From Eutreptiella sp. 'Long Island Sound 2002' (lineage: Eukaryota > Euglenozoa > Euglenophyceae > Eutreptiales > Eutreptiaceae), in assembly GCA_964036045.1 (NCBI GenBank), contig OZ038390.1:41734525-41798524 (forward strand): DNA of 64,000 nucleotides, in the 5' to 3' direction. Position numbers and translations under genes: made by a program. Shown piece by piece: positions 4,901 to 60,246 of this stretch. The first letter of the stretch is position 1, and the number at the start of each line of letters is the position of its first letter. The notes under the pieces are model-generated. The model searched no databases. It saw only the letters and a list, made by a program, of their open reading frames with translations, and had not been told where the DNA came from.

Positions 4901-4921
4901 GAACAGGTGGTACCAACCAGC

Positions 4922-5131: not shown

Positions 5132-5229
5132 GAAGCCCTGCCCTGAAACCCACATCGATATCTCCAGCCATCCAAGCAAATGGCCACAGAAACCAAACAA
5201 CACGGCACACATGGCAGGACGAGACATAC

Positions 5230-12850: not shown

Positions 12851-13289
12851 ATAGTAAACACAACAGTGTATAACTTCCTTGCACGTCGACTGGTGCTTGG
12901 TTCCCGGGATTGTAGGACGAAGTTGGAGAGACACGCAAGATCCTCAGCCCAACACGACAACAAAACAGGGGACACAATGCCGTTGGCGTTTCTGTGCAAA
13001 GAAGGGTGCGAGTGTAGCGACAACAAGTTGGTACTGGGCAGCTCAGGGCCCCCCTGGGACCATGCAGTGTACGTTACACTCCCACTCACACTGGCTTTTG
13101 TTTGCGCCTGATTTTTGCCTACATTGTCGGACCTTCGTTCACTGCCGGCTGGGGTGAGGTCATCGCGAGCTTGATGCCCGCACGCGCAGGGCCCTGCAGA
13201 TCAAGGGAAGAGGCCTTGCGTAGTAAACTGTGTTTCCACCAGTTTATTGGGTAGCCTTTAGCGAGGAAGGTACGTGCAATGGTGCTGAT
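12851..13289 (-). repeat. left arm of 439-bp inverted repeat (PLE terminal repeat)
   Basis: The reverse complement of this segment matches 15045-15483 with no difference that I could find. It holds the last codons of the RT ORF (...FLAKGYPINWWKHSLL...) and about 270 bp of 3' untranslated sequence. Homology breaks sharply at both ends. Penelope-type elements usually carry such terminal 'pLTR' copies. Confidence 0.9.
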
Positions 13290-15044: not shown

Positions 15045-15483
15045 ATCAGCACCATTGCACGTACCTTCCTCGCTAAAGGCTACCCAATAAACTGGTGGAA
15101 ACACAGTTTACTACGCAAGGCCTCTTCCCTTGATCTGCAGGGCCCTGCGCGTGCGGGCATCAAGCTCGCGATGACCTCACCCCAGCCGGCAGTGAACGAA
15201 GGTCCGACAATGTAGGCAAAAATCAGGCGCAAACAAAAGCCAGTGTGAGTGGGAGTGTAACGTACACTGCATGGTCCCAGGGGGGCCCTGAGCTGCCCAG
15301 TACCAACTTGTTGTCGCTACACTCGCACCCTTCTTTGCACAGAAACGCCAACGGCATTGTGTCCCCTGTTTTGTTGTCGTGTTGGGCTGAGGATCTTGCG
15401 TGTCTCTCCAACTTCGTCCTACAATCCCGGGAACCAAGCACCAGTCGACGTGCAAGGAAGTTATACACTGTTGTGTTTACTAT
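15045..15483 (+). repeat. right arm of 439-bp inverted repeat (PLE terminal repeat)
   Basis: This is the direct copy of the RT 3' end plus 3' untranslated region, directly preceding ORF1. It matches the reverse complement of 12851-13289. It would act as the 5' terminal repeat, and so the probable promoter region, of the ORF1-ORF2 unit. Confidence 0.9.
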
Positions 15484-15682
15484 CGTACTACCAAGCGTAA
15501 GAAAGACACTTGGGTTCTCTTCATCACCGCCATCGCCAGTACTTCGTCATCGCTGTCAGCATGAGTAATATGAATTCCAATTTCACCAACCTCTTCAGCC
15601 AGTGGGTCGCAGCGCAAGCTCCGGGTTCGTCTACCTCAAGCCCTGCGTCTGGTGATCGTGGTCGACCGCTGGCGTATCGACT

Positions 15683-17236
15683 ATGGCATCAAATCCTTCG
15701 TCTTTCCCGCCAGCCGCGAGTTCAGGCGGGCCCCCTGGTGCAACCGGCACCCAACTCAACCAGCTCGGCAACCAGTTTTTTCAATTCCTGCATGCCCAGC
15801 AGGCCTCCCCAGCCGACCCGAACGCGTCCACGTCACCCGCATCCGCCACAAACTCCAGCGCGTCTCCCCAGGCAAGCCCTGCCAGCTCGTATGCCGAAAT
15901 GTTCAAGGCTTTCCAACAGTGGGCGCAATCAGGCACTGGCCCAGCGAATCCTGCTGCCGCTCAGCCATACCCGTCGGCGCCGCCACCGCCCGCTCATCAT
16001 GCGGCATCGACCGTTAACTTCGCCAACCTACGGGCCGGAAGCTCAGCACTCGCTATCCAGAATCAACGGAGGGCACTCCAGAACAACGGGGCAGACCACA
16101 ACCAGGGGAAAGGAGGAAAAGGCGGCTTTCCTAACCAACCCATTTGCCCAGGCTGTGGTGGACCTCATGGATGGCAGAGCTGCCCCAATCTGGCCCAGCA
16201 TGAAGACGCGGTGTTCAGTCACATCATTGTCACGGAACAGGCAAAGTATGAACGTGATCAGAACCGGGCACGCATCAACGCAAAAATTATGGCGGCGGGG
16301 TTGGACCCCATGGCCTTCAATTTCAATCGCAGCAATAACGGCCCGGGCTACGGTGCGCCAGTTAACGTCATGGCCCAACTGTCGGGGGGGTCTACTAGCA
16401 CACCCAACTACGGAGCGGCGTTTCCTTTCCCCAATTCAGGACCGAGCCCGCCGGCGGGGACTGCATCAATGGGCCAAACGCACAGCCCCAGTCCTAACAC
16501 CGCCGAGATGTTTCAGCGATTCCAGGAGTTCATGAACCAGGCAGCGCACGACACATGTGCAGGCACTTCCCAGGGGAATGCGGCCCAGGGCCAGCCAGGC
16601 ACTGGGGATGGCAACCGTCAGCGACGACACATCAACGTGGATATTACTGAGTTTGAGGACGTGCTCGACACACCGCTGCCTCCCCGCGATAAACGGAAAC
16701 GCTGTGACCGCACTCCGGGCAATGATGACACGCGATCACCAGCCCCAAAGCGTGGGGAACCTGGCGACGACGACGACGTCCTGCGTGCCCTGTTCAGTGA
16801 TCCACCTGACGCCGCCCCTGCCGCGCAGGACACCCAGAACGAAATCGCTCAACTCCAGCGTCAAGCGGTAGAAGCTAAACGCCGGCTCGCAGAGCTACGC
16901 GGCGCGAGACCTGCTGCCCGCCCTGTAACGGAGCACATCCCGGGGATGCTAGATATCCAGGCCAGGCGGTGTCTCACACATGCCCTGCGCACCCCCAAGG
17001 AGAACGACACCGTCTTTGTGGTTTCATACTCCCCTGACGAGTCCAAATACTCCTACAAGAAGGGAGTGGTCCAGCAGGTCGACCGCGAGTTCGTCTACAT
17101 CCTCCCTGCCGACGTACCTGAGGATGCCATGGAGGACGCCGCCCCGTCCGTCCACGAACGTCACTGGCTGTTCCGTGACGAAACTAAGGCGGCTGCTGCC
17201 ATGTCAGCATTGAATGACCTCTTGCGTGTAAACTAG
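15683..17236 (+). CDS. PLE ORF1, gag-like protein with CCHC-type zinc motif
   Basis: A 517-codon frame rich in P, A, S, Q and N. It has a zinc-knuckle-like motif CPGCGGPHGWQSC (C-x2-C-x3-H-x4-C, near 16144-16182) and two related segments AEMFKAFQQW and AEMFQRFQEF. The C-terminal third holds charged sequence around RDKRKRCDR (possible nuclear signal), then a Q/A/R-rich stretch likely to form a coiled coil, then an ordered tail. Likely role: nucleic-acid-binding particle protein of the retroelement. A better start context may be the ATG at 15561 in another frame, whose peptide (NFTNLFSQWVAAQ) resembles the internal repeats. That would imply a frameshift near 15650-15683. It ends next to the ORF2 frame. 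Confidence 0.7.
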   Translation: MASNPSSFPPAASSGGPPGATGTQLNQLGNQFFQFLHAQQASPADPNASTSPASATNSSASPQASPASSYAEMFKAFQQWAQSGTGPANPAAAQPYPSAPPPPAHHAASTVNFANLRAGSSALAIQNQRRALQNNGADHNQGKGGKGGFPNQPICPGCGGPHGWQSCPNLAQHEDAVFSHIIVTEQAKYERDQNRARINAKIMAAGLDPMAFNFNRSNNGPGYGAPVNVMAQLSGGSTSTPNYGAAFPFPNSGPSPPAGTASMGQTHSPSPNTAEMFQRFQEFMNQAAHDTCAGTSQGNAAQGQPGTGDGNRQRRHINVDITEFEDVLDTPLPPRDKRKRCDRTPGNDDTRSPAPKRGEPGDDDDVLRALFSDPPDAAPAAQDTQNEIAQLQRQAVEAKRRLAELRGARPAARPVTEHIPGMLDIQARRCLTHALRTPKENDTVFVVSYSPDESKYSYKKGVVQQVDREFVYILPADVPEDAMEDAAPSVHERHWLFRDETKAAAAMSALNDLLRVN

Positions 17237-19562
17237 TTGCGATAGAGAGTGTGAATCATGGGGCAAGCTGAAACGGCTGTGTCATCAGGGGCCCCTGGAC
17301 TGCACAAGGAGACTCAACCGCGCATCCACACAAATCACGGGCCTCATTCGAGGCCTGCATGACACGTGTGAACTTCTATCTACAAAGTCCACCTCCCCAG
17401 GATGCTCTGGATTACGTAGTGCGGCAGGGAAGCTCTACCGGGTTTTCCTAAGTCTACCCTTAACTGGTCCAGCCTGCCCGTTTTGTGACCCGTCGATTTA
17501 TGTGCCGGCGCACTATGCCCGCCACCAGCTGGAAAAAATAGGTGCCTGGTACAGCGAGTCCGCCCGATTTCTACAACACTCCTCCCATGCTTCCCAAACT
17601 AATACGCCTGCCTACCACCGCAATTGCCCCTCCTCCCCAACTGAAAAATGCCACTGCTCTGGATCCCCCGCTGGGTTTCCAATCCTGTGGTCACGTGAAA
17701 TACTGTCTAGATTTAGATTGGGTGTTCTCAGCTCACCTACGCTCACTGCATGGTGGGACACCTGGGTTGCACGATTCACACATGTCTCCACATGGTGCTC
17801 CGTCACGGCCACGCACGTGTTCCGTTTTGCCGACTGGGTAATTCAGGAACTCACTACCTGGGCCAACCACCTGGATCTGGGCTCTGTCGGCCTCCTCCCC
17901 AAGGCCTGGGCCCGTACTCTCGCCCGGTCTTTCGGGGTGGCGTCCGACAACTCAGGCGTGTCACTGTTGTCCCCGTTTTTCGACAACTGGTCTTACCGTG
18001 GGTTTGATGCCCACGAAATGGCGTCCATAGTGTGCCCTGTCTTCACCAACGGGGTACACACAGTTCCGTCCAACACTCAGCGCACACGTCTCCTCTGTGA
18101 TCTTTTGCTATCAATTGATCGCACACCTCTCACTGGCCATTTACTATTTTTTCCCGCGGGCAGGAACCCTGCGGCCGAGTGGAATTCCCTTTTCCCCTAC
18201 CTCGACAGGTTCATTTTCCGGCAACTGTCCACAGGGCTGCGCGCCAAAAAATTATTTTCCAGCGATTCGGGCCTGCCATCTGGCTTATTCACACTGTGGT
18301 GGGTGGGAACCCCTGATGCTCAACTGCCTGAGGCGTCAGACACTATCCATAACTTGTGTTTCCTCGCTCACAGAAGTGGTGCGCGTGTGACCGCGCCCAC
18401 AACTATGTTTGAGCAGGCACCTGCCACCAGCCCCAGCTCTTCGTCCGTGTGGCGCGACGAAGTGAACCGGAGGAGAGACCTGCTGGCGCCCCGATGGTGC
18501 CCGAAGCGACGTGTCACTGTGTCCAGAATAAAGTGGGAGAGTGGTTTCCAGTCCTGGGACAGAATCAACGACCACCTGAAGTTTGCGCCCCAACCCCATG
18601 TGCGAAAGCTCCACGCCCTCCGACGGACACGGGCCTCCACGACCACCAAGGGCACCTGGATTTATGCGTTGTGGACGGCCGAAAATAGACATATTTACAT
18701 TGGCCAAACCGGAGGCCGCCTGAACCGTCGCTCCGTCGGGGCTCGAGGCTCCGAGCACATCAGGCTCGGGTCGGATTTTATGCGAATACAGGGCGAAAAA
18801 CTCCGTGTCCCATCAAATGTGTACAAATGGATTTCGAAGGTGGGACCCGAAAAATTCGTAGTCACACCCCTCGAGTGGGTCGCACCACACAGGGCCGACA
18901 GAGCTGAGCAGGAATGGATGACACGGTGGGGGATCTCAGCGCTATTCAACCAGGACTTACCATCCGTGGCCTCCAGAAAATGGCTGTTTTTGACGGACCG
19001 AAAAATCTGGAAGGCTGAGCTTGCTTCAGCAGGGGGCACCGTGCTCGACGTGGCGTCTGACATTTTGAAAAAAGACAGGCCACCGTCGCCCTATGATTAC
19101 TCCCCCGAGTTGCTGCTGTCCCTCCTCCCAGCGACAGCTAAACTCCTTCCTGCTGGGCAACACCGGCTCCTATACACGCGCATTGCCAGCCATTTTATGA
19201 TTTACCACAAGTCCTTCCTCCCGTACTCCATACCAGTAAAAATACCACTACTGTCCGCGCCAGAGCAGACGACCATCAAACACAGATTGCATGACGTCAT
19301 TGATCGACATGGCACATGGCCCCCATCCCTAAAGGCATACGTGAAAGCGTGCATCCGGATCATTGTATCCCGCTCCCGGTCAGTGGGTGACCTGCTGATG
19401 CACTCCAGCCTTACGCGCATGCCGACACATGTATTGTCTCACCCCGGTGAACCGTGCCCGTGCCAGCAGTGGCAGGGAACCCCAGGTGATGGTGATGGTC
19501 ATGGTGATATGATCATCATGATCATGCATAAAAAAAACGATCACACACAATGTATCGCTTGA
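17232..19562 (+). CDS. PLE ORF2 N-terminal part with GIY-YIG endonuclease
   Basis: Open from just after a TAA (17229-17231), overlapping the ORF1 stop by five bases in the +1 frame. No ATG is in frame near the start, so translation may depend on frameshifting or reinitiation. Near 17476-17525 there is a C2H2-like motif, CPFCDPSIY followed by HYARH. The GIY-YIG domain begins near 18650: WIYALW...HIYIGQTGG, then arginine-rich RLNRRS, the metal-binding glutamate in RAEQEWM (near 18905) and a late asparagine in ALFNQDL. The domain would nick target DNA for integration. Further on is CPCQQW, a CxC cluster like that between GIY-YIG and RT in permuted PLEs. From about 19480 the sequence becomes low-complexity and the RT is missing; the RT lies inverted at 13119-15044. 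Confidence 0.78.
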   Translation, partial: TSCDRECESWGKLKRLCHQGPLDCTRRLNRASTQITGLIRGLHDTCELLSTKSTSPGCSGLRSAAGKLYRVFLSLPLTGPACPFCDPSIYVPAHYARHQLEKIGAWYSESARFLQHSSHASQTNTPAYHRNCPSSPTEKCHCSGSPAGFPILWSREILSRFRLGVLSSPTLTAWWDTWVARFTHVSTWCSVTATHVFRFADWVIQELTTWANHLDLGSVGLLPKAWARTLARSFGVASDNSGVSLLSPFFDNWSYRGFDAHEMASIVCPVFTNGVHTVPSNTQRTRLLCDLLLSIDRTPLTGHLLFFPAGRNPAAEWNSLFPYLDRFIFRQLSTGLRAKKLFSSDSGLPSGLFTLWWVGTPDAQLPEASDTIHNLCFLAHRSGARVTAPTTMFEQAPATSPSSSSVWRDEVNRRRDLLAPRWCPKRRVTVSRIKWESGFQSWDRINDHLKFAPQPHVRKLHALRRTRASTTTKGTWIYALWTAENRHIYIGQTGGRLNRRSVGARGSEHIRLGSDFMRIQGEKLRVPSNVYKWISKVGPEKFVVTPLEWVAPHRADRAEQEWMTRWGISALFNQDLPSVASRKWLFLTDRKIWKAELASAGGTVLDVASDILKKDRPPSPYDYSPELLLSLLPATAKLLPAGQHRLLYTRIASHFMIYHKSFLPYSIPVKIPLLSAPEQTTIKHRLHDVIDRHGTWPPSLKAYVKACIRIIVSRSRSVGDLLMHSSLTRMPTHVLSHPGEPCPCQQWQGTPGDGDGHGDMIIMIMHKKNDHTQCIA

Positions 19563-22500: not shown

Positions 22501-24740
22501 ACAATGGGTTTCAATTCACTACCATAAAAGAGCACATGCATGTATGCACGATGTAAGCGGCTTTGTGTGGTGTGTGTTAGCCTCACGAGCGATTGATACA
22601 CGGCTAGTCATGTCCGCTCAACCAGAGTTTGGAGCCTACTATTTGATAAGGTGAAATCCACTCGTGCACCTTGGAGTCCCCCCCCCCCCCGACTGTAGAC
22701 CGAGGTCTTGTAATTTTTTGACACGCGCCCGAGGGCGTGGGTTTTATAAAGTGGCCTTTTTGAAAGTGGGACCTATATTTTTTTTACCCAAAGCTCAATG
22801 TGACATGTTTTCTTAATCTCCTAAGAATGCTGGTTTTTGTGAGGCAACTTTTTTCATTTTCCATTTTTCAACTATAATTTTTTTTGATCACCCCACGATG
22901 CAAACAATCACATAATGAGTCAAAAGAGGGTTATGGTGAAGATGATGATTCTTGGGAGCCCCTTGAACCTTTGTCAAGATTCAACTCACAGTTCGCTAAA
23001 CCGAACCATTGGTCTTGGGTTGCAGCACTCTTAATGTGGTGTCTCTTGATATTTGTTTCCCCTTCGTGTTTACAACACCCCCACGGTAGCATGTAGTAGC
23101 ACCGGGCGTCTGAGAATGGCAGGCCCCGAAGCCATTGTGCACCCGTAGGCCCTCGACAACCTGCGGACCACCTCCATCCTCATCCGCCTAGCCTTGCGCG
23201 TGCGTGTGCGTGTTTGGTGCCCATTTGACAAATTGTGTGACACGCATACATCAATCAAAGTATCCAATGGCTTTTTTTGGTCCTTTTAGGGCTTGGGTTG
23301 AGGTTGATGTCACTTGTCCTTCATTTGCTTGTACGCCGCAAAGTTTCCTTGGTGGGTCTTGTAAAGTGTACTTGTTGAAAGTGGGTTTTATAATTTTTTT
23401 CCCGGGAATGGCCCCCAAATTGGGATGGGTCTAGAAAGTGCCACTTGTTGGTGGAACTACAATCGGAGTGTGGGAGGGTAGAAATGAAAGCAGATCAAAA
23501 GGCGAGGGCAAGACGCTAACACGAAAGACTAAAGACTAAAGATGAAAACAGTACACAAGATGCTAACACCATTTCCCCTCCGGTTGTTTTGCGTGGCCTC
23601 ACTTCCGTTTCTCTCGGCGGTAGGCATGTTTGAACACTGTCCCAATAAAGTTGGGAGGCGTTAAGATGAAAAATTGTTTCCTGAAACGTCAACAAAAGTG
23701 GGAGCCGCGCGAAGGGTCAATCGAGTCACTTAGCACCATTGAAGTCCATGCTTCTGTTGTTGCCTTGTGCCTCTCCTTTTCTCTTAACCGTGCAAGGTCG
23801 GGTTCCTGAATCGGACGGGGGCTTTTTGCCATAAGCTCGTGGGGATCACAATGTCTCTCAGTGGTATACTCCTCAGCTTCTCCTCAGTAGCTTGTCCTCG
23901 AAGTCCCCCGACAGAGGACAGGGGACGGAGGGAAGGCGATGGCAGGCGTCGCACGGAGCGCCATTGACTGCGCCCTCATCACTGGCTGCCGTGCCCAGAC
24001 CGCGCCGCACACTCCAGTCGGCGGTCCCCACAGGGCTCTCAGAGCCTGCACCCACACCACTCGCGAGTAGTGAGCCGCTGCACCCGTCGACGATGCCCCA
24101 CAGGCCTCGTGGATGGCACGGCACTAAGCATTGGTGAATAGAATAGTGAGGTGCCTCAGCCTTCCCTGCACTGGCACTGACAGGACCCATTTGCGGCAAC
24201 GGTTAGGACGGCTAGGGTAACCTACAATCCAACATGCATTGGGTTCTCAGCATTAATGCCATTATATTATAATTTACCTTACACAGCAAAACCTATCTGC
24301 ACTAGAAATCAGGATTCTGGATGGCGCAAAGAAAGGAGGGAGTTGATCGTCTTTCAACCTAATTCGATGCATTCAAATTCTAGTTGGGTTGCATCTGAAT
24401 TTCGCCCTGCCCCAGTGGTCCCCACCGGCAGGGCCCGGCAAAAATGAATTCTGAGCCTGATTTCGAATTTGACACTGACTTTCACAGCAAATTTCACAAA
24501 CGGAGCACGGATCCGTCGAATGAACACAACGACAGACGCATCAGAGAAGTCCTCCGTTGGAACTCCCCCGATTTGCACTTTGCTGTGTTTGTTGTTTACA
24601 CCCAGTGCCTTGTGTGTTGGGCTGGATCTGAAGGAATCGATCTTTACTTTACGAGAGCTTGTGATGCATGAGTTGTACGCTTTTCGGTCCCGTGCATAGG
24701 CATGTTCTAAGTTTGTTCTCAAAAAAATTGGACACGCAAC
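19563..24740. other. intergenic; no gene recognised
   Basis: Only short ORFs without recognisable domains. Runs of C or G occur at about 22075, 22209-22240, 22471 and 22678. A (GA)n stretch is at about 21427-21441, and A/T-rich DNA lies around 22700-22880. The promoter of the MKT1 gene is presumably in the last few hundred bases; no clear element was seen. Confidence 0.5.
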
Positions 24741-27700
24741 ATGGCGCTCAACTCGACTGGCACTTTTTTCAATAAACTCGTCCGCCGAAACGACCTCGCG
24801 GAACTGAAAGGAACTCGGTTGGCCATCGATGCCAATCACTGGGTCGAAAATCTGGAGTTCGTGGAGCCGTATCATGTGGCTATGGGGGGCATACCGTTGA
24901 GTCTGAATACGGCTGTCGACGCAGAGCTGGAGAAGCTGGCCAGATATGACATTCGGCCCTTGTTCGTGTTCGATGGTATCAAACTGCCGCCTGCACCCCC
25001 CATGAACGCAGACAGTAAACCGCTGAACTCCGGTGTGCAAACTCTGGGCGTTAACCAGTACCGTCGGAGAGAAGAGGCCTGGAGACTATATCAAAAGAAT
25101 GACTATGCCTCCGCCAAAAAAGAATTCAGGGAAGCTGGAACCGCAGTGCCTAGTTCCGACTTCATTGAGGCAGTCATTAAGTACTTCCGCCAGCGAAACG
25201 TCGAATTTTTCCGGGCACCATATTTGTCCTGGGCGCAGTGCGCATGGTTTTGCGGGCAAAAGGACCGTGTGGCGTCGGCCGTGTGGGGCAGCGAAGAAAT
25301 TCTTCTGTTCATCGGTTTAGTGCAATTTGACAAACTGATCCTGAGGCTGGACTTCGACAAAGGTTAGTGCTTTGCCGTTTATGTGGAATTTCGTTTCATA
25401 GTCCTGGTGATTGGCATACTGCGTTGCTTCTCTGACCACAGGAATCTACGAATGGGTTTCTCTTCAAGAAATCTGTGAACACCTGGGCAGCAACAGCGGG
25501 GCGGTGCCTGTGCCCATCAGTGTTTCCCAGTTTATTGACTGCTGCATCTTGGTTGGGTTCCGTGGAGGTTGGCACGAAGGAAACCAATACCAAAGTGAAG
25601 AGAGCGGTGCTGCCCCTCCTTCCGCCGTGCAATTCCCTTGTAGTTCAGTTTTTTTGTAGCTTTGCCGCTTCCGCAGTAAACCAAGAATACGCACCAGGAA
25701 CAGCCTCTGACAGGGGACATTCCAAAGGTCTCAGCTCGTGGGTTCACGGTGCACGCGGAGCCCACGCGAGCAGTGCACTGACCGCTCAATCTCGAAAAAA
25801 TAATCACCCTTTTTCTTCTTCTTCAATATTTAGAGATGGACGGATTGCGTGATGGTATTGGCAGCAGCATCCAAGGCCTGCCACACGACAACAGTGCTAT
25901 GGCTTTTGCCCAATGCTTCAAGGACATCACGGTGGTTGCGAGAGATTTGATCCAGTTCCGTTCGGGCCCCTCGTTGCTGGAATACAAAGTGCGCACATTC
26001 GCTTTGAACACCATGTATCTTGACCAGGTGAGCCAAAAATGACCATGCTTGCTGCGAGCGATGATTTGTATGATAGCATCCATCGGCTTTTTCGTGAAAT
26101 CACCGGTTCGGTCATCACATTGCCTCTGCAGGTGCTGGAGCAGTTTTTGCGCGTGAAAAATCTCGTGCTGCACCATATCATCTTGAACATGGAGTGCGTG
26201 GCGATTCCGATCAGCATGCATAACAACACGCACCCTGAGAAGGACCGCAATTATTACAACAATTCTATGATGACCATGCCCCAGCGCAATGTGATCAACA
26301 ATATCGTCCCAAACAATCTTCACACGATTATTGGCCCCCGCCTGCCGAATTTGGTGTGCGTGTAATCTCGCCGGGCAACGTGTTGCATGGTGTGCTGGTA
26401 TCCTTTTTTTGGTGACACATTCCCGGCCACACGTCTTTTCCACAGGTCTACTTTTTCTTCTCGATTGGGCTCGTTTCCCCGCAAGTGATCCACAATGTTG
26501 TGCGCAACACAATGATGGATTACCTTCCGACCATTGATTCCTACGAATACAGGTGTATTTGTGTGGTGGATGTGCATCCGACCGTCGTGCATGGAAAATG
26601 ATGCGTGCATACACGGGCAGAGTGTGTTTGCCACAGATTTAGTTGAGACAGTCAACAGCCGACATTGTCAGGCTCGGCCCCCCAAATGGCACCCCACGCA
26701 AGTTTATTTTGAGACCAGGGTACCACTGGCAATCCCCAGTTCCTGCCACTTGCTCGCTCTGGCTTGTTCAGGGATCTGTTGCAGAAGATTGTGCCGTTGC
26801 GCACGCAGATCGCATACTTGTTGATCAACTGTATGATGCGGAAAGATGAAGTGTATTGGAAGGTGGTCCCGCATGGAGGCCGACGTCCGGTGATGAGCTA
26901 CATCCAGTGGCACACCGAGAAGGTTTGCGTCGAGTCACGCAGGGCATGTTGGGGAGGACTGCTGTTGAGGGTTTAAATGGTCGGTCAGCAATAGCATTAC
27001 GGTAAGCCGGGGGGCAACCCCCATGCATAAAAAAAATAGCATTACGGTATTGCGGGATTGCCATCCCCTGGCTTTTCACTCAGTTGGCCAGCGTCAGTGA
27101 CGAACTGTTCTTTGCTTTTGCGTGTGATTTTACAATGCCAAGTTTGTAGATTGTGATAATCGCAACTGTTGGGTCGTCAATCGAGCATTCTAGTTGGGGC
27201 AGGTGACAGTTGCAGCATTAGAAATTGCCCTGTGCCACTCATCTTTGATTCCTCCATCCCTCTCGTGCAGACGATTGCCCTGCACACTCCACCCGAGCTG
27301 TTGCTGGATGATTGGGATGTCACTTGGAAGCGGGACTTTGCAGAACAGCTCCCGAAGGAGGGCAACAACGTGATCATGAATTTCTGCACCGTGTTGCCAT
27401 TTGCGAAGTGCGCCTTGAAGGTGTGGTGCGTGTTTGCAGCTCAGGTCATGCGGCTTCAGTTGCGGCGGAGCCGGAATTGCATATCCCCGTTACCAATTTT
27501 TGTAGCACCCTTTGCGCCTGTGATCTCTGTTTCTTTTCAGGCGAGTGTTGGCCAGCAGCACCATGTTTACGGCCCACCAAAAGTGTACAACCAGTTTGAG
27601 GAAGTGGTGTGCGTGATTTTGCTCAAGAGCCTGGATTTGCTCGGCTATTTCACGCATCCTCCGCAGCAGAAGCCTCTGGGTACCGATGAGAGCGGTACCA

Positions 27701-28701
27701 GTCTGTTCGCAGAGGCCCTGTCGGATGTGCATTGGCGCTACGCCGAGCAGGGGGTGCTGTTTATCGAGCTCATCCGCACAGGAGCTTTGAACTGCCAGGC
27801 TTTCAAGCCACCATATTCCAACCCGAGGTATTGACCTGACCAAGTGTAGCTCAAGGGTTAGTGAGGGCTATTGCCCGTGGTCGGGCGTTGAGGGTTGGTG
27901 CGGTTTCTCAGAGTTGCTCAGGTCGGTGAGGGTTGTGATGACGCAGTAGCATGCCTCCACTGGAGCCTCAGCCACGTAACAGCATTGTTTGGACACTTTT
28001 CGTGGATGGGTATTCCTGGCCTTATTCCAATGCCCTCTCCTATGTTACACAGTGACAACGTCGTCACCATCACGCTGATGACGGATCCCAATGTCTTGCT
28101 GATTAGTCGTGTCTTGTCCATTGTGCCGATGAATCTGAAGTCTGAGGATTGGGGCAGCAACATCGTGGTTCGAGACCTGTGCGCATTCCATGTGCTTTTC
28201 AAGTCGTTGTACAAGACCCTCCGAAACCTCTGTGAGATCATCATGATGATCATGTTTATGGATAACCGTGTGAAGGCGACATCTATCAATATGGACAGGT
28301 GCAGATCCTGTGAAGCCTCGTTGGTCATATGATGTCTTCCTCTTGGCAAACACCCCACCCACCCTGCGCAACCATCAAGACCATCGCGCAATACCCGTTG
28401 GTTGCCGCCCTCTGATAAAGGACGATCAAAGTGTTGTTTGGAAGAGGCAACATATATTCCCTCCCTCTGTGAAGTGGTGGGCAGCATTGATTGATTTTGC
28501 AGTATGCTTGTTTTTTCATGGCACCAGTGGCTGTCTTCCATCTACTCCTTCTGCTGTTGGCGCCTTTATAGTGCATGCTGTTATCTCTCAGTGCTACACT
28601 GTTCACGGAGTTGGCGAATCGTCTGCCTTTCAATGACAATATCAACACCGCCATGGGAATTGTTGTCTACTACTTGTTGTTGCGGCAGCATAATGCGCAA
28701 G
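24741..28701 (+). CDS. MKT1: MKT1-like post-transcriptional regulator, exons 1-10
   Basis: Ten exons: 24741-25362, 25442-25567, 25834-26027, 26132-26353, 26446-26552, 26772-26922, 27271-27420, 27541-27827, 28053-28298 and 28592-28701. All introns are GT-AG and phases agree throughout. With the last exon at 35468-35706 the CDS is 2454 nt, 817 residues (yeast Mkt1 is about 830). The N-terminus is an XPG/PIN-like fold: GTRLAIDANHW (Asp30), RPLFVFDGI (Asp78), VWGSEEILLF and SQFIDCCILVGF. The middle has NNLHTIIGPRLPN-LVYFFFSIGLVSPQ and DSYEYR, typical of the Mkt1 family. The C-terminal part has VLLISRVLSIVP and NRLPFND...MGIVV. In yeast Mkt1 works with Pbp1 in mRNA-level regulation; that role is inferred here from family. 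Start: ATG 24741, first in the frame. Unspliced read-through of the last donor would stop at 28799. Confidence 0.88.
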
Positions 28702-29227
28702 GTAATTTCCCCTCAGTCCATCTTTGGATCTGCGTGGCCTTTTTCCAAGACGTGCAACAGCTTCTTCCCGGGGACATGCGCCAGACGGATTTCATGTGAA
28801 GAGTCTGGTAGCGGAGCAACCGTGCGGACCCCCTCTCCCTCCTGACATTAGGCACCTCAAAACGAGTCGTCTGAGGTCCTCGGACACCATCGACACTAGG
28901 CATAACTCCGAGCAAAGGCGGGCCCCTGAGAATTGCCCCGTTCCGGCTTTTTTCTAAGGAAGCATGAACCAACCACGTTAGCGCAGGGTTACACGTTCCG
29001 GATTTTGGGGACAGAAAAGGGATTGCTTTTCTTGAAAACTGGGTGTGCCCCTCAACATCCTCCCAATGACCCAGGCACACTGGCAAATGATTTCGTGCCA
29101 CAAGCAGCAACGGCTTTCCCATCAAGGGCGGTTTTTTAAGGCCATGTTTTCTTGTGAAATCACCTTGAAGAGAGGTTGTTAGATCAAGCGCAGTATTTGG
29201 TTGACGACCGCATTTCCGACCGCCTCC
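28702..29227. other. 5' part of last MKT1 intron
   Basis: Begins with the donor GTAATT after the exon ending ...GCGCAAG. If the intron is retained, the frame continues 32 codons to TGA at 28797-28799. No other feature was recognised up to the target-site copy at 29228. Confidence 0.7.
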
Positions 29228-29235
29228 AACCGCTG
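29228..29235. repeat. putative 8-bp target-site duplication, left copy
   Basis: AACCGCTG directly abuts the left end of the KDZ-like transposon. The same octamer abuts the right end at 35397-35404. Confidence 0.65.
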
Positions 29236-29238
29236 TAT

Positions 29239-29262
29239 GCACGAAGTCGCCCCCCCCTACCT
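29239..29262 (+). repeat. left terminal inverted repeat of KDZ-like element
   Basis: GCACGAAGTCG, eight C, TACCT. Perfect complement of 35365-35388. Confidence 0.85.
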
Positions 29263-29520
29263 CCCCCCCCTACCTACCCCCCCCCCCCTACCTACCCCCC
29301 CCCTACTTCCCCCCCCTACCTCCCCCCCCCTACCTTCCCCCCCCCTACCTCCCCCCGCGTACCTCTTCCCCTCCCTACCTCCCCCCCCCACCTCGTCTCC
29401 CCCCCCCCCTACCTCCCTCCCCCTACGTTGCTACTCCTACCTCCCCCCCCCCCCCCCCCACCACCAACCCCCCATCCCCCCCGCCCTTCCCGAGCAACCC
29501 CCGCCCCCCACCCCACCCGG
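29249..29520. repeat. C-tract repeat (CCCCCCCTACCT-like)n
   Basis: Tandem, irregular runs of 5-10 C separated by TACCT or TACTT, then a long C run near 29443-29459. It is the subterminal region of the transposon's left end. The right end has a shorter version (35306-35365). Such tracts can form i-motif or G-quadruplex structures (inference). Confidence 0.85.
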
Positions 29521-29534
29521 ACCCTTGCGTTGGT

Positions 29535-30490
29535 AGACCGCCTTTTGGCTGCACAGCCTTGTGTGTGCACCGCCTTGCCTGTGGCCCCTTAAATAACAAG
29601 ACTCCTGCGGTGGCCACAGACCGCCTTTTGTGTGTTCCGCCTTGTGTGTGCACCGCCTTGTGTGTGCACCGCCTTGCCTGTGGCCCCTTAAATAACAAGA
29701 CTCCTGCGGTGGCCACAGACCGCCTTTTGTGTGTTCCGCCTTGTGTGTGCACCGCCTTGCCTGTGGCCCCTTAAGTAACAAGACTCCTGCGGTGGCCACA
29801 GACCGCCTTTTGTGTGTTCCGCCTTGTGTGTGCACCGCCTTGCCTGTGGCCCCTTAAATAACAAGACTCCTGCGGTGGCCACAGGCCGCCTTTTGTGTGT
29901 TCCGCCTTGTGTGTGCACCGCCTTGCCTGTGGCCCCTTAAATAACATGACTCCTGCGGTGGCCACAGACCGCCTTTTGTGTTTACCGCGTTGTGTGTGCA
30001 CCGCCTTGTGTGTGCACCGCCTTGCCTGTGGCCCCTTAAGTAACAAGACTCCTGCGGTGGCCACAGACCGCCTTTTGTGTGTTCCGCCTTGTGTGTGCAC
30101 CGCCTTGCCTGTGGCCCCTTAAATAACAAGACTCCTGCGGTGGCCACAGACCGCCTTTTGTGTGTTCCGCCTTGTGTGTGCACCGCCTTGCCTGTGGCCC
30201 CTCAACTAACATGACTCCTGCGGTGGCCACAAACCGCCTTTTGTGTGTTCCGCCTTGTGTGTGCACCGCCTTGTGTGTGCACCGCCTTGCCTGTGGCCCG
30301 TTAAATAACAAGACTCCTGCGGTGGCCACAGACCGCCTTTTGTGTGTTCCGCCTTGTGTGTGCACCGCCTTGCCTGTGGCCCCTTAAATAACAAGACTCC
30401 TGCGGTGGCCACAGACCGCCTTTTGTGTGTTCCGCCTTGTGTTCGCCCCGCCTTCTGTGCGTACCGCCTTGCCTGTGGCCCTTCAAAGAA
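29535..30490. repeat. 83-bp minisatellite inside transposon
   Basis: About 11 tandem copies of an 83-bp unit that includes GCCTGTGGCCCCTTAAATAA, CAAGACTCCTGCGGTGGCC and ACAGACCGCCTTTTGTGTGT. Some units carry an extra 16-bp block (CCGCCTTGTGTGTGCA) giving 99 bp. Copies differ by only a few substitutions, so the array is young or homogenised. Because 83 is not a multiple of three, reading frames through it rotate; the ORFs it generates are not taken as genes. Confidence 0.9.
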
Positions 30491-30973
30491 CTTCACTCCT
30501 ACGCACCACCTAACCGTTCTTTGCTACGGCTCCCTTCTCGCCCAAACACCTCCACCCCATCTGCAAAGAGGAGACCAATGCAAGCACAACAGCCACGAAA
30601 TCAAAACACGAACTGCGACCCATGGTGAGTGATTGCTACCACTCGAGTCCGATGTGTTGCTGCACCGTATGCAGCGCCAAAGTCAACACGTGACTATGAA
30701 CAGAAGAACGAGTATGGACGCAGGGTGCCAAGCATGGCGGCACACCAAAGAATGCAGAAGACAAGCGACAAGCCACCGCAGTAGGAACACAATACCACGG
30801 CATAGCGGCCCACGCAAAAGGTGCCATATATGATGGACTCAAACAACGGAGGACACAGGTGAAAACTTAAATACAGTGTGTAACCAATGGGCACCATGTG
30901 CCAATGGCACCATGGGAGCGATGAATGCAAGTAGACGGTGATGTAGACAGCACGTACTTACACCGCTCACCGA

Positions 30974-33900
30974 CTACTCCGGAACACCAACCTTCGGCTG
31001 CTGCTTCTCCACGGTCTTGTTCGGCAGCAAGAAACTTTTTGGCGGCACCAGCTGCACGCGCTTATTCCGGTCGACTTGCTCCACACCATACTGCTGCATA
31101 ATGGGGGTTGGGCCACGCACAGGCAACAACACGATCCACAGCGAAGGCAGCGGTGCCATGGGGGACTTCTTCGTCAGCAGCAGCAACAACCCCTCATACT
31201 GAAAGCGCAGCAGCACGGCCTTACCTGTTGCAAGGACAAACGGACGAAAGTAAAGAAGAGATGTATTGCGACCAACAAAAGGCCCGTTCGCAACGCATGT
31301 GTAGTTGTACACACCCACTGTACTTGGGCACTTCACTTGCCCCTTGCCGAAGATGCCCTTCATCACCGGGCGGACCGCGATGGGTTCGTTGCCACGCAAG
31401 CGCAACAAGAAGAAGGTCACAATTTTGTCGTAGTTCGCCACAGACAAACCGGAGGGTGGCTCCCGCAACTTTTGGAAGTCCTGCGCCTCTTTGTCCGCAT
31501 CCCACTCCTTGAAACCCCCAACTTCAATACTAAGGGTCCTCAGCTGATTCCTGACGCCCTCCGACATTACCACTTCATGGTGCCTCAACTTGTCGGGGAC
31601 TAGAAAGACGAAACATACCCATGTGACGAAAGAAAACGTGATATGCGTAAAGTGTCAGCGAACCTACGGAGCAGGAACACGACGAAGCAGGAACCTTCGC
31701 TATCCTTCTTCTCTGCCACGGCCTTAGGGGCACGGCCCGGAGGAAGGGGTGCAGGAGCTGCTGCCTCATCTGGCATCGCGTCATCACCGTGCAATTCACC
31801 TTCGTCAACAGTGGCCTCTTTTTCCGCGGCTGGATCACCTACAATGATAAGAGTAACATGATGGCAACATGGAACGGAGAAGTGCTTCCAAGGCGTTAGG
31901 TTACCGCCACACACCTGCAGCACCAACAGGAGCACCACAGGAAGACGTAGATTCGGCAGTGGATGGGGACAAAGGATCGTCCTTCCCCTTCAAATTGGTG
32001 GCAAACAGCTGCTTCGCGATACCGTCCATGTCGGGCTGATCAAGGGCCACTCGCTTTAGGGCCGGTGAGGATGTTGCTGACGCTGGACTTGGGGGCTGCG
32101 CGCGCTTGGACCCAATGCGCCGCGAGACGGAGCCCATGGCCACGTAACCAGACGAACCCGATGCCGTTGACGTAACCGGGCGTGCCAAGTGTGCGACGGG
32201 GTTGTTAGCCGGGAGCGTGTTGGGGGAAGGCGACGCATACGTCATTGCCCGATGCAAGGCCGCCGATTGCCGCAGAAGGAAGTTCGACAAGCTAACGGCA
32301 ACTGTCGGCTCAACGATCAAAATAATCCAAGTAAGGGGATCCTCCAGCTGCTCCTCACGTGCCATAGTTGGTGCAGAAGGCTTCAAGATGCCAGCCGGGT
32401 CGCCCCCTGCCCCCAGGTAGCGATTGTGGGCCTCACAAACGTTCCAAAGCAGGAAGAAGAACCGGACATCATTCATGGTAGGTGCAATGTACTTGAAGCG
32501 CGACAACCATACGAAGAGCTGCTCGCACGCCTCACTGTTGACGCCTTCCAAGGCAGGGATGTCGTCTGCATTGTACTTCGTACACTTGTGGTTCACCTCG
32601 TGGAACCTATGAGCAACAGAAGCAGAAGCTTCATCCATGCATTGCATGTATCCTTGTTATGGCAAGGTATGAGGATTGCAAGTATACCTGTCCACAAACC
32701 AAGTCACGTCCTCCAAAGTCGAAAGCTTGTGCTTGCGAACGGATTGGTCGCAGTGACAACCGTTGTCATACCCAGCGTAATGAATGACGACACCATCCTC
32801 CCGCAGAGTGTGGACATAGTTGAGGACATCGTGCGTAGACTCTGGCTGTATCAATTCCGACAACTCAATAATGCAGTTGCAAGGCCGAGCAGTTGCTAGC
32901 AGACCCGACGTCTTGCCCGGGTGCACAACGAAGGTCTTCGTGCAACCCTCGTCGCTCACTGTGCTTGTAGTCTTGGGCTTGGTCGGCTGTTGTTGTTGCT
33001 TGGCCCGCGTACGGAGGGCAATCACCTCATCTTCTTCATCATCGCTCTCATCCAAAAGTTTGGGAACGACCGGTTGATCCACAGGTTTATGCTCACGGCA
33101 GTAGGCAGAACCAGTAGTCTTGTCAGGCCATTGGGAGCATTGCAAAGGGATGTTCAAGCCTGTTGTTGGATGTAGTCCCCGCTCACCACGTTGATGTTGA
33201 CACACACGGCGGCAAACCTTCTCGTGCCCGTCCAGAATCACCACCTCCTCAAACCTCTGGAGAGCTGCAGTAAGGTATGCCACTTTGTCGTCCCCAGCCT
33301 TCTTGAAACTCATGTGCCTCACATGCTGGGGCCCCGCTGTTGTGCACCTACACATGACGCAAACAAGAGATGGTAGTTGTCCACTCACCAAACCGAAGGG
33401 TAACACCACTGTAGTAAACACACACCTATGGTGCCGCGAAGGCATTCCATTGTTACGGATGCGGGTGTTCAACATCTCAAAGAGTGAGTCATCCCGGAGA
33501 TCCGTATCGGGCATGACGTCCTGCACCATCTGCTCTCGGTGATAGCGCATGGCCCAACGCAAGAACAAACCCTTCTTCAAAATCTTTGGTGGTATCCCCA
33601 ACACAAGACCTTGTGTGTGGAAGCTAGCATGTTGCAGCGTCAACCTCACTTCCGTGTCATCGATGTCGCGCTTGCGCAAGACGGACCTAAATATTGCACA
33701 GATGTTGTGCACTGTAGGCACACATCTTGGAAATGGACGCAAAAACGGACGTTGCACACACCTATTCGTGACCATCATGTATGGCCGTTCCTCGGTGAGT
33801 CGATAGGATTTACCACCAACGGTGAAACCATCGTAGGTATAGTGTATGTCGCACGAAGTACAGGTGCCCTTCACAAGTTGAATATCCTTCGGCCTCCCCT

Positions 33901-34288
33901 AAGGAAGAACGGGAACGCAATATGGTACTTACAACATTGGCAGAGCGGATTACATCGTACGCGGAATGAGCACCTCAGCATTCCCCAATACTTCCAGAGT
34001 GGTAACATGGGCTGCTTCCAGATTCCCACCGCACGCGTGGCAGGCATCACAGAACGGCAACAAATACATCGGCGGCTGGTATGTCAACTCCAAAATGCCA
34101 CATTGACGCTAGCGATTGAGGGCGCGGAACACATGCATCGAAGTTGCCTTGATTCCCACGGTCTGCAAGTCTACCAACAGTGCGTTGATGGGCCTTGTGG
34201 GCCAAGGATGCGACCAGAATTGCCTATAGTGCTCTGCATAGCGAGCAACATATGTTGCAACCACGTCCTCGACTGAATCGTAATTCAT
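30974..34288 (-). CDS. KDZ-type transposase with cysteine cluster, multi-exon
   Basis: Minus-strand exons that join well: about 33909-33762, 33686-33426, 33347-32688, 32606-31915, 31838-31668 and 31599-30974. Most introns are 70-90 nt, run from GT to AG, and most exon ends read AG|GTRT. Two 5' exons (within 34288-33980, first ATG 34288) are less certain. N-terminal part: PFCDACHACGG and GTCTSCDIHYTYDG, a CxC-type cluster. Catalytic core: first Asp in EEVVILDGHEKVCRRVC; zinc-like QCSQWPDKTTGSAYCREHK; second Asp in HYAGYDNGCHC; histidine/cysteine segment EVNHKCTKY; Glu in LEGVNSEACEQLFVWLSRF. This order (DG.xK...C, YDxGCH, H.KC, xNSE..EQ) is that of KDZ and HMGXB3-related proteins. The long tail beyond the core (EKKDSEGSC onwards) was not recognised. 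It would cut and join its own terminal repeats. No disruption was seen in the core exons. Confidence 0.75.
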
Positions 34289-34537
34289 GGTGATGCACAA
34301 TATCCTGTAGAATGGGTGATGGAAAAGCCGTGGTCACAAATGCACAGGCTACATGATGCCCTTGCCTTGTAACTTGCACTTGTAACCCTGTAAACCAGTC
34401 TCACTTGTAACCCCGCGGAAAACGCGGAAAATCGCGACGCAACAGACGCAACAATCAGAATTGGCCCACTTGTGGGCAAGGTGGCTACGTCGCCCCTGCC
34501 TACGCCTACGCCTATGAGAAAGGAAAGGAAGAAAGAA

Positions 34538-34650
34538 AGCCCCTGAATGCCTCCTTCTCGAGCCGGGGAAAAGCTCGAGGCAGGGATCTTCAAGCCCCTG
34601 ATTGCCTCCTCCTCGAGCCGGGGTATGAAAGCTCGAGGCAGGGATCTTCA
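34538..34650. repeat. tandem pair of 55/58-bp hairpin units
   Basis: Two adjacent units begin AGCCCCTGA and end GCAGGGATCTTCA. Each contains an inverted repeat, GCCTCC..CTCGAG against CTCGAGGC, around a GCCGGGG loop. Confidence 0.85.
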
Positions 34651-34689
34651 AGTGCCGGTCTCGGCGAATGGGCTACATCTCACCATGAT

Positions 34690-34965
34690 GGTTGGGGCCC
34701 AAAAGAGGGCGGAAATGCTACGTCACCCCTGCATTCTCGGGGGTCCCCAACAAAGGGAACAAAATCAGAAGTCAAAACCTACGCCGGGGGTCACCCTGAT
34801 GCACCACGCAACAAAGCGTGGATTCAAATATTGTCCCGGTTTCCTCAATAGCACCGGACGGTTGGGGCCCAAAAGAGGGCGGAAATGCTACATCACCCCT
34901 GCATTCTCGGGGGTCCCCAACAGAGGGAACAAAATCAGAAGTCAAAACCTACGCCGGGGGTCACC
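34690..34965 (+). repeat. 106-bp direct repeat pair
   Basis: 34690-34795 and 34860-34965 differ at two positions by eye (G/A and A/G). Each starts GGTTGGGGCCCAAAAGAGGG and ends CGCCGGGGGTCACC. They are separated by 64 bp and lie in the transposon's right subterminal region, upstream of the transposase gene. Confidence 0.9.
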
Positions 34966-35305
34966 ATGACGCCCCTAGGGGCCCCTAGTATACCAAAGTA
35001 TGGGTCTCTAGTACGGCCAGACGCCCAAATAGCCACCGCTATAGAGCGGGGAGGCAGAATCAGAAGTGGCCCACTTGTGGGCAAGGATGGGGCAAGGTGG
35101 TATAACCCCTGCCGCCTGGGGGATCCCCACCGCCTCAGAGCGGGGGGCAGAATCAGAAAAGAGCCCACAAGTGGGCAAGGTGGCTACATAACCCCATTGG
35201 GCGCCTTCGGCGCCCGTTGGCTCCTTGGGCCCATACCTTTGACAACTAACTGTCGGCCGGAGGCCCTGGGGGGGGGGGGTAGTTGGCGTCCTAGGACCCG
35301 CGGAG

Positions 35306-35388
35306 TCGCCCCCCCCTACCTTCCCCCCCCTACCTTCCCCCCCTACCCCCCCCCCCTACCTCCAAGGTAGGGGGGGGCGACTTCGTGC
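35306..35388. repeat. fold-back at transposon right end
   Basis: An internal copy of the terminal motif (GAGTCG, eight C, TACC, from about 35306) faces the terminal one (GGTA, eight G, CGAC, 35366-35381) across about 45 bp of further C tracts. The right end can fold on itself as well as pair with the left end. Confidence 0.75.
35365..35388 (-). repeat. right terminal inverted repeat of KDZ-like element
   Basis: AGGTA, eight G, CGACTTCGTGC. Perfect complement of 29239-29262. Confidence 0.85.
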
Positions 35389-35396
35389 GATATATG

Positions 35397-35404
35397 AACC
35401 GCTG
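35397..35404. repeat. putative 8-bp target-site duplication, right copy
   Basis: AACCGCTG, identical to 29228-29235, directly after the right end CGATATATG. Confidence 0.65.
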
Positions 35405-35467
35405 CCGGCTGCCACATGTAATTGATGTGCTGTCCTCCTGACCTCCTGATCTCATCTGCACTTGCAG

Positions 35468-40919: not shown

Positions 40920-43612
40920 TTATGGTACCCTGCGGTCAGTTGGCCCCCATGTCTTATGGTACTGTCAATGTTTGCTCTGTGGTGCCGTGTGGGAGGGGAC
41001 CAAGTGACCACAGGATACCATAAGACATGGGGACCAACTGACCACAGGGTACCATAGGGCCAAGTGACCACAGGGTACCATAATGCCTGGGGACCAACTG
41101 ACCGCAGGGTACCATAATGCCTGGGGACAAACTGACCGCAGGGTACCATAATGCCTGGGGACGAACTGACCACAGGGTACCATAATGCCTGGGGACGAAC
41201 TGACCACAGGGTACCATAAGACATGGGGACCAACTGATCACAGGGTACCATAATGCCTGGGGACGAACTGACCACAGGGTACCATAATGCCTGGGGACGA
41301 ACTGACCGCAGGGTACCATAATGCCTGGGGACGAACTGACCACAGGGTACCATAATGCCTGGGGACGAACTGACCACAGGGTACCATAATGCCTGGGGAC
41401 GAACTGACCACAGGGTACCATAATGCCTGGGGACGAACTGACCACAGGGTACCATAATGCCTGGGGACGAACCGATCGCAGGGTACCATAATGCCTGGGG
41501 ACGAACTGACCGCAGGGTACCATAATGCCTGGGGACGAACTGACCACAGGGTACCATAATGCCTGGGGACGAACTGACCACAGGATACCATAAGACATGG
41601 GGACCAACTGACCACAGGGTACCATAATGCCTGGGGACGAACTGACCACAGGGTACCATAATGCCTGGGGACGAACTGACCACAGGGTACCATAATGCCT
41701 GGGGACGAACTGACCGCAGGGTACCATAATGCCTGGGGACGAACTGACCGCAGGGTACCATAATGCCTGGGGACGAACCGATCGCAGGGTACCATAATGC
41801 CTGGGGACCAACTGACCGCAGGGTACCATAATGCCTGGGGATGAACCGATCGCAGGGTACCATAATGCCTGGGGACCAATTGACCGCAGGGTACCATAAT
41901 GCCTGGGGACGAACTGAACACTGGGTACCATAATGCCTGGGGACGAACTGACCACAGGGTACCATAATGCCTGGGGACGAACTGACCACAGGGTACCATA
42001 ATGCCTGGGGACGAACCGATCGCAGGGTACCATAATGCCTGGGGATGAACCGATCGCAGGGTACCATAATGCCTGGGGACCAACTGACCGCAGGGTACCA
42101 TAATGCCTGGGGACGAACTGACCACAGGGTAACATAATGCCTGGGGACGAACTGACCACAGGATACCATAAGACATGCGGACCAACTGACCACAGGGTAC
42201 CATAAGACATGGGGACCAACTGACCACAGGGTACCATAATGCCTGGGGACGAACTGACCACAGGGTACCATAATGCCTGGGGACGAACTGACCACAGGGT
42301 ACCATAATGCCTGGGGACGAACTGACCGCAGGGTACCATAATGCCTGGGGACGAACCGATCGCAGGGTACCATAATGCCTGGGGATGAACCGATCGCAGG
42401 GTACCATAATGCCTGGGGACCAACTGACCGCAGGGTACCATAATGCCTGGGGACGAACTGACCGCAGGGTACCAGAAGGCCTGGGGACGAACTGACCGCA
42501 GGGTACCATAATGCCTGGGGACGAACTGACCGCAGGGTACCATAATGCCTGGGGACGAACTGACCGCAGGATACCATAATGCCTGGGGACGAACTGACCG
42601 CAGGGTACCATAATGCCTGGGGACGAATGGACCGCAGGGTACCATAATGCCTGGGGACGAACTGACCGCAGGGTACCATAATGCCTGGGGACGAACTGAC
42701 CACAGGGTACCACAATGCCTGGGGACGAACTGACCACAGGATACCATAAGACATGGGGACCAACTGACCACAGGGTACCACAGGGCCAAGTAACCGCAGG
42801 GTACCATGATGCCTGGGGACAAACTGACCGCAGGGTACCATAATGCCTGGGGACAAACTGACCACAGGGTACCACAATGCCTGGGGACGAACTGACCACA
42901 GGATACCACAAGACATGGGGACCAACTGACCACAGGGTACCATAATGCCTGGGGACGAACTGACCGCAGGGTACCATAATGCCTGGGGACCAACTGACCG
43001 CAGGGTACCATAATGCCTGGGGACAAACCGATCGCAGGGTACCATAATGCCTGGGGACGAAACGATCGCAGGGTACCATAATGCCTGGGGACCAACTGAC
43101 CGCAGGGTACCATAATGCCTGGGGACGAACCGATCGCAGGGTACCAGAATGCCTCGGGACCAACTGACCGCAGGGTACCAGAAGGCCTGGGGACCAACTG
43201 ACCGCAGGGTACCATAATGCCTGGGGACGAACCGATCGCAGGGTACCATAATGCCTGGGGACGAACTGACCGCAGGATACCATAATGCCTGGGGACGAAC
43301 TGACCACAGGGTACCATAATGCCTGGGGACGAACTGACCACAGGGTACCATAATGCCTGGGGACGAACTGACCGCAGGGTACCAGAAGGCCTGGGGACGA
43401 ACTGACCACAGGATACCATAATGCCTGGGGACGAACTGACCACAGGATACCATAAGACATGGGGACCAACTGACCACAGGTCACTATAGGCCAAGTAACC
43501 GCAGGGTACCATAATGCCTGGGGACAAACTCACCACAGGGTACCATAAGACATGGGGACGAACTGACCACAGGATACCATAATGCCTGGGGGTGAACTGA
43601 CCACAGGGTGCA
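40920..43612. repeat. 34-bp minisatellite, open in all three minus frames
   Basis: About 75-80 units of 34 bp (ACCATAATGCCTGGGGACGA followed by ACTGACCACAGGGT), each with a GGTACC site. Variants include AAGACATGGGGACC units, GATCGCAGGG units and a few shortened units with GGGCCAAGTGACC. The leftmost unit (40920-40962) is inverted relative to the rest. The unit length is 1 modulo 3, so each minus frame passes through the same 34-residue cycle (VPCGQFVPRHYGTLRSV...), and all three frames stay open for 750-920 codons. No start context or flanking domain argues that it is translated. I take it as a satellite whose unit happens to lack minus-strand stops. Confidence 0.9.
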
Positions 43613-50039: not shown

Positions 50040-50447
50040 CCGGAGTTGTAGCGACTCCAGGACCCTGCCTGGCGGATTTTTGAAAATTGAAAAATCTGAG
50101 ATTTTAATCATCTCAATCATCATCACATGTCATCAACCCCAGGCTAGCCCTCTAGTTCTACAACCCAGCTGTTTGACATCGCCCCACCCAAAAGTTCAAA
50201 GGCAAAAAGCCCGGAAGATAAGACACTCAGAAGGGTACGTGTGTGTTCAGGGATAAGGTTAAAAGGGAGCGCCGAGCGAGAGAGAGTCAGGGCACTGAAG
50301 GCAAGGGATGCAAGGTTAAGAGAGTCAGAGAAGTCAAGATCCAGGGAGTCAGAGAGGTCAACATCGCACGGCGCTAACACTCTAACAAAAACAAAGCGTG
50401 TATAAACTCCCTCGCAATCTTCTGGGTGCGCGCACGAAGACACTCAT

Positions 50448-51539: not shown

Positions 51540-51544
51540 TTCCG

Positions 51545-52216: not shown

Positions 52217-52261
52217 AGGGGTGGGACCTCAAGAAAGAGGCTCTACGCCTGCCTGGTCTCA

Positions 52262-53134: not shown

Positions 53135-53179
53135 CGAACATGTCTCTATCTACTGGACGGGGATACCAAACCCGTACCG

Positions 53180-60227: not shown

Positions 60228-60246
60228 CCGGTCTCCGGTCCACTAA

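Follow-up and report, generated by a model that had tools for sequence, protein, structure and literature searches.

A probable KDZ transposon of a multi-copy family, antisense within the last predicted MKT1 intron of Eutreptiella

Among the described systems closest to the element reported here, Zisupton has inverted repeats and 8-bp target duplications, a Dileera family of Puccinia graminis has an 8-bp target duplication, and two Kyakuja families of Laccaria bicolor show 7-bp duplications and CA..TG ends with no inverted repeats, according to the available excerpts of the source (PMC12730594). KDZ elements are already known in algae, namely in Ectocarpus and Chlamydomonas; the transposase gene of the giant Ectocarpus transposons is often predicted to be broken, and their authors infer mobilization in trans (excerpts of PMC12477816 and PMC8226300). 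Here, we analyzed a stretch of 64,000 nucleotides, hereafter the window, from the euglenophyte Eutreptiella sp. 'Long Island Sound 2002' (assembly GCA_964036045.1, contig OZ038390.1, positions 41,734,525 to 41,798,524 of the forward strand). We consider it probable that window positions 29235-35396 represent one member of a DNA transposon family with many copies, most likely of the KDZ group and with a CxC5-type N-terminus, inserted antisense to MKT1 within the last predicted intron of that gene; that the predicted transposase gene of this copy is stopped at codon 60; and that splicing of the intron would take the insert out, leaving MKT1 functional. The family itself is real and recently mobile, its sister genes being ~99% identical: defined ends, target duplications elsewhere, many copies of the ends, near-identical full-length sisters and one uninterrupted sister gene model were all observed.

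The initial annotation of this DNA, made from the sequence alone, had proposed a search for further copies with the same termini, and these turned out to be numerous. The 16-base end piece GCACGAAGTCGCCCCC has 543 forward and 564 reverse exact matches, 1,107 in all, in the 2.28-Gb assembly, where the reversed pattern, used as a control, gives 1 + 0. To describe the geometry of the ends, neighbours within 25 kb were paired among 100 listed places of these matches. Within this set, 31 of the 33 neighbouring pairs face inward, none outward and two point in the same direction; the inward pairs span 94 to 20,762 bp, with 20 of the 31 at 0.5-1.5 kb and two at 6.4-6.5 kb. Target duplications were read at 25 other insertions, in the register fixed by the 8 extra end bases described below; since one locus (L035) is the same insertion as another (L034), it was left out, giving n=24. 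Exact duplications measure 7 bp in 12/24 insertions and 8 bp in 3/24, so that a duplication of 7 or 8 bp, a trait of KDZ transposons, is present in 15/24. When left and right flanks were swapped between insertions, 0/552 combinations matched at either length. A fixed duplication length of 8 bp was rejected, 7 bp being commoner. The 8-bp rule given for KDZ/Zisupton elements in the initial annotation, and expected there at the other copies, thus agrees with Zisupton and Dileera as excerpted (PMC12730594) and with three insertions here, but not with Kyakuja nor with the usual length in the present family.

Two full-length sisters, L031 and L032, measure 6,469 and 6,369 bp between repeat ends, and L031 is flanked by the 7-bp duplication AATGTGC. 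Their gene positions equal those of the window copy at 3,283/3,315 (L031) and 3,288/3,315 (L032). Among the 55 loci that were fetched, transposase matches at E <= 1e-3 occur only in L001, L006, L009, L031, L032 and L052, the last of which matches piecewise from residue 1 to 906 of our first gene model, the match being interrupted near residue 800; the best match in the remaining loci has E=6.1. Since many fetched loci comprise one end or a short copy only, these six are no estimate of gene number. A search for divergent transposases inside the variant ends L004, L014, L015 and L017 (L051, L053-L055) gave a best match with E above 1. Eighteen short copies (597-1,467 bp between repeat ends; L035 and the degenerate 527-bp L018 left out) have C-runs at their ends and 2-11 matches each to a 20-base word of an 83-bp minisatellite unit, counted with up to 3 substitutions and flanks included; the window copy, L031 and L032 have 9-10. 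The idea that the C-rich ends form a separate fold-back element was rejected, since full-length and short copies have common ends. Two of the loci have additional features. L033 (8.6 kb) contains a LINE-like element nested at 2029-6900, with endonuclease, reverse transcriptase and RNase H recognized by eye, and has an intact 7-bp duplication, GTGGGGT. L034 and L035, ~26 kb from each other and oppositely oriented, have flanks that match by eye; the same insertion seems to have been found twice, and the host region there has therefore probably been duplicated and inverted. An Rfam search of the window and four of the fetched loci returned nothing informative.

Comparison with the other copies fixed the ends of the window copy. 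The perfect 24-bp inverted repeat of the initial annotation is present at both ends (Table 1), and two end types of the family lengthen it by 8 bases, GATAGTAT, counted 26 times in the fetched loci (its first G present in 24), and CATATATC, counted 30 times; 9 further ends are of other types. The right end of the window copy is of the full CATATATC type, and its left end is short by 4 of the 8 bases (5 if the duplication is taken as 8 bp). This loss explains why the octamer AACCGCTG, rightly reported to flank both ends (29228-29235 and 35397-35404, outside the inverted repeat), stands at unequal distances from the repeat, namely 3 and 8 bases. The octamer occurs 4 times in the window, both strands counted, against a chance expectation of 2.4; since it is not rare, only its place beside the element ends carries weight. 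The arrangement fits a 7-bp duplication, AACCGCT, the next G being the terminal base of the element, though it could alternatively be read as an 8-bp duplication with five lost bases. Positions 28702-35467, originally given as the element, are in fact those of the predicted intron. In addition, the right end (35364-35385) is repeated inversely 41 bases further inward, at 35301-35322, with 95% complementarity, so that a hairpin is possible.

Between the element ends, a multi-exon gene of 8 exons and 928 codons is predicted on the minus strand, from 34288 to 30974, where the initial annotation had placed the transposase. Its exon borders are predictions, and the 60-base gap after exon 1 has a weak acceptor. 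The window copy carries an in-frame stop at codon 60, where both L031 and L032 have a sense codon; the L031 model is uninterrupted over 928 codons and that of L032 has a stop at codon 653. The transposon had been called complete, which is nearly so for its ends but not for its transposase model. An earlier model of our own, with 9 exons, 906 residues and a 66-base first intron, was rejected because L031 and L032 are open across that interval. Pairwise differences, taken over ~648 synonymous and 2,136 non-synonymous sites, amount to 11 synonymous and 20 non-synonymous between the window copy and L031, 3 and 22 between the window copy and L032, and 10 and 20 between L031 and L032. As far as such a small number of changes can tell, the three copies thus seem to have been decaying, rather than held under strong constraint, since their divergence.

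The assignment of the transposase to the KDZ group was examined by profile searches. The catalytic piece of the window copy, taken from the joined exons, matches the Pfam KDZ family (PF18758) with E=0.00088 (19.5 bits; cut-off 26.6) and that of L032 with E=0.0011 (19.2 bits; same cut-off), while KDZ is the sole Pfam match of the whole first window model (906 residues; E=0.0047). The N-terminal 240 residues of L031 match CxC5 (PF18718), a family that Pfam links to KDZ transposases, with E=0.058 (14 bits; cut-off 26.9), the match covering positions 3-106 of the 117 in the model. A cysteine cluster before the catalytic domain is the order expected in KDZ proteins. Two distinct weak matches within the same protein family, both KDZ-related, count for more together than singly, and KDZ membership of the predicted transposase is supported, at the remote-homology level only.

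Several results weigh against this assignment. Every KDZ-related score is below the curated Pfam cut-offs, so that the KDZ-type transposase and the KDZ/CxC profile matches anticipated in the initial annotation were found only as weak signals. The full 928-residue L031 protein has no KDZ match at E <= 1, and its catalytic piece gave none either. The six single unspliced window frames are without a KDZ match, and two of them gave other weak matches, to Folate_carrier (E=0.3) and DUF7662 (E=0.12). A KDZ profile search of the whole genome yielded none at E <= 0.001; its 14 controls were silent as well, so this result tells little. The protein collection yielded no relatives of the transposase at E <= 0.001 and none of its residues 425-530 at E <= 10; none turned up among viral contigs with its peptide patterns, nor in the PDB at E <= 10 (phmmer). 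The single-sequence structure model of the catalytic piece was unusable (mean pLDDT 37), and the D, D and E motifs were read by eye only. Finally, 9/24 insertions, including the full-length L032, are without an exact duplication in register.

These points bear on the rival explanations. The element could belong to some other superfamily of cut-and-paste transposons that duplicate 7-8 bp, such as hAT, which includes Ac, and its KDZ likeness could have arisen by chance. Such an origin would account for the sub-threshold KDZ and CxC5 scores and for the one full-length copy of three that has no KDZ match; in addition, hAT transposons usually make 8-bp duplications and some fungal hAT families 7-bp ones, according to the excerpted source (PMC12730594). 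On the other hand, searches with the joined model and its pieces at E up to 10 returned no families but KDZ and CxC5, placed in the order of KDZ proteins. A hAT domain was not among the matches within that limit, though HMMER filters drop most weak ones, and the reversed N-terminus and reversed catalytic piece, run as controls, had no Pfam match at E <= 10. We thus regard another superfamily as improbable. Still less credible to us is an intact, autonomous window copy, its codon-60 stop being either a sequencing error or removed by splicing. Splicing of a 66-base GT..AG interval would indeed take out the stop with the frame kept, but L031 and L032 have an open sense codon there and no acceptor AG, and the interval reads as coding. 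A probable KDZ transposon with a broken transposase gene model is the reading that we retain.

The consequence for the host gene can be weighed in the same way. The MKT1 exons lie on the plus strand, opposite to the transposase gene, so that the antisense orientation first described is upheld. The four joined exons around the insert are in one frame to the stop codon, as had been claimed, and their product matches MKT1_C with E=6.4e-41, from position 3 to position 238 of the 240-position model; the exon beyond the insert matches it by itself (E=1.1e-7). Upstream, an open frame with an XPG_N match presumably represents the start of MKT1, where such a match is expected. Three other frames between it and 27828 have no Pfam match at E <= 0.01, and a phmmer search of MKT1 against the PDB gave nothing informative. 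Without the insert and one duplication copy, the last intron would measure 597 bp, the two preceding modelled introns being 225 and 293 bp long. As judged from the sequence, MKT1 likely still works by splicing out the whole insert. A 6.2-kb insert that carries arrays of C-runs and of minisatellite units could instead break the gene, the intron not being properly removed and this MKT1 copy being a pseudogene or giving a shortened protein. However, both splice borders (GT and AG) and the frame are preserved, the last exon is uninterrupted up to its stop codon and corresponds to the end of MKT1_C, and 533 bases separate the insert from the donor and 64 bases from the acceptor. A broken MKT1 is therefore rather unlikely in our judgement, if less so than the two alternatives considered above.

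Our preferred reading, a KDZ-like element removed with its intron, suggests how the family could operate. A DDE transposase of the family would bind the terminal repeats, and perhaps also the C-run and 83-bp arrays kept by the short copies, cut the element out and join it to new sites through staggered nicks 7, sometimes 8, bases apart. The window copy would no longer make the enzyme, although enzyme from intact sisters could still move it. Since the short copies are too small to hold the gene, they must have been moved by an enzyme from elsewhere, and intact sisters could have supplied it in trans. The element would leave passively with the MKT1 intron, and the gene would tolerate the insert because it is carried off whole. 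More speculatively, the family could be a separate KDZ lineage that joins the 7-bp duplication of Kyakuja to Zisupton-like inverted repeats; its G-quadruplex-prone C-runs and 83-bp minisatellite, which would extend the ends, could dock the transposase and explain the rise of the short derivatives, while MKT1, a conserved RNA regulator gene, would run on splicing such an element out. We hold this extended scheme as tentative and doubtful in its entirety.

Elsewhere in the window, pieces of LTR-retrotransposon type occur at 50406-55234 (+) and 58056-60242 (-): a gag-type aspartyl protease at 52217-53134 (+; E=6.6e-7), a reverse transcriptase at 54086-55234 (+; E=7e-28), and RNase H, integrase and a weak chromodomain at 58056-60242 (-). 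A 34-bp tandem repeat of ~78 units spans 40995-43609, with long open frames kept on the minus strand. The long open frames 13119-15107 (-), 15656-17236 (+) and 17232-19562 (+) have no Pfam match at E <= 0.01; by eye, the first resembles a reverse transcriptase and the last a GIY-YIG endonuclease.

Table 1. Features of the transposon copy, its predicted transposase gene and the surrounding MKT1 gene, in window coordinates.
Feature	Position	Strand	Basis or remark
Likely MKT1 start, open frame with XPG_N match	24711..25364	+	E=1.9e-8; exon ends approximate
MKT1 exon (predicted), start of MKT1_C domain	27541..27827	+	exon joining, profile match
MKT1 exon (predicted)	28053..28298	+	exon joining, profile match
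MKT1 exon (predicted) before transposon-bearing intron	28592..28701	+	exon joining, profile match
Last MKT1 intron (predicted)	28702..35467	+	6,766 bp; GT and AG borders
Left target-site duplication AACCGCT	29228..29234	.	8 bp when next G counted; 7-bp rule from other insertions
Inserted transposon copy	29235..35396	- (transposase gene strand)	6,162 bp; ends fixed by comparison with other copies
Left terminal bases GTAT	29235..29238	+	family end is GATAGTAT, hence 4 bases absent
Left arm, 24-bp perfect terminal inverted repeat	29239..29262	+	repeat search
C-run array, 14-bp unit CCCCCCCCTACCTC	29250..29451	+	tandem-repeat scan
Minisatellite, 83-bp unit, ~10 units	29535..30454	+	tandem-repeat scan
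Transposase exon 8 (predicted), ends at stop codon	30974..31224	-	gene model, sister alignment
Transposase exon 7 (predicted)	31315..31599	-	gene model, sister alignment
Transposase exon 6 (predicted)	31668..31838	-	gene model, sister alignment
Transposase exon 5 (predicted), remainder of catalytic piece	31915..32606	-	gene model, sister alignment, profile match
Transposase exon 4 (predicted), start of catalytic piece	32688..33347	-	gene model, sister alignment, profile match
Transposase exon 3 (predicted)	33426..33686	-	gene model, sister alignment
Transposase exon 2 (predicted)	33762..33893	-	gene model, sister alignment
Transposase exon 1 (predicted)	33954..34288	-	in-frame stop at codon 60 (34111-34109)
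Right arm, 24-bp terminal inverted repeat	35365..35388	-	repeat search
Right terminal bases GATATATG	35389..35396	-	comparison with other copies; family end CATATATC read inward, identical
Right target-site duplication AACCGCT	35397..35403	.	matches left copy
Last MKT1 exon (predicted) with stop codon	35468..35706	+	exon joining, profile match

Because its ends, its duplication, an uninterrupted copy and numerous short derivatives are all available in one genome, this well-delimited KDZ-like family opens the KDZ transposition reaction to direct experiment. The MKT1 insertion, for its part, is a natural case in which to examine how a gene copes with an antisense transposon of 6 kb inside an intron; since intronic transposons are common, the insertion by itself is unsurprising.

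Compared with the systems introduced above, as far as the excerpts describe them, the transposon family is new but of a known kind. It resembles Kyakuja in the 7-bp duplication and in one end that starts with CA, but is set apart from the described Kyakuja families by its 24-bp inverted repeat and by its ends, GATAG and CATAT. With Zisupton it shares inverted repeats and, in 3/24 insertions, the 8-bp duplication that is also the point of likeness to Dileera; unlike in these two, 7 bp (12/24) is four times as common as 8 bp. Since it agrees fully with none of the three, we file the family as KDZ-like, with no subgroup. Literature searches for KDZ transposases in algae and in Euglena gave no paper within the collection searched, from which we draw no broader conclusion that such elements are unpublished. 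Like the giant Ectocarpus elements, the window copy has a broken predicted transposase gene, whereas those elements, in the excerpted descriptions, are generally >10 kb and the present family measures ~6.2-6.5 kb with many 0.5-1.5 kb derivatives. Finally, the combination of a few long enzyme-bearing copies with short ones in which the ends and part of the subterminal repeats are retained recalls Ac/Ds-like pairs as described in the available part of PMC3260210, but the transposase belongs to another group and the subterminal part kept here consists of the C-run array and the 83-bp minisatellite.

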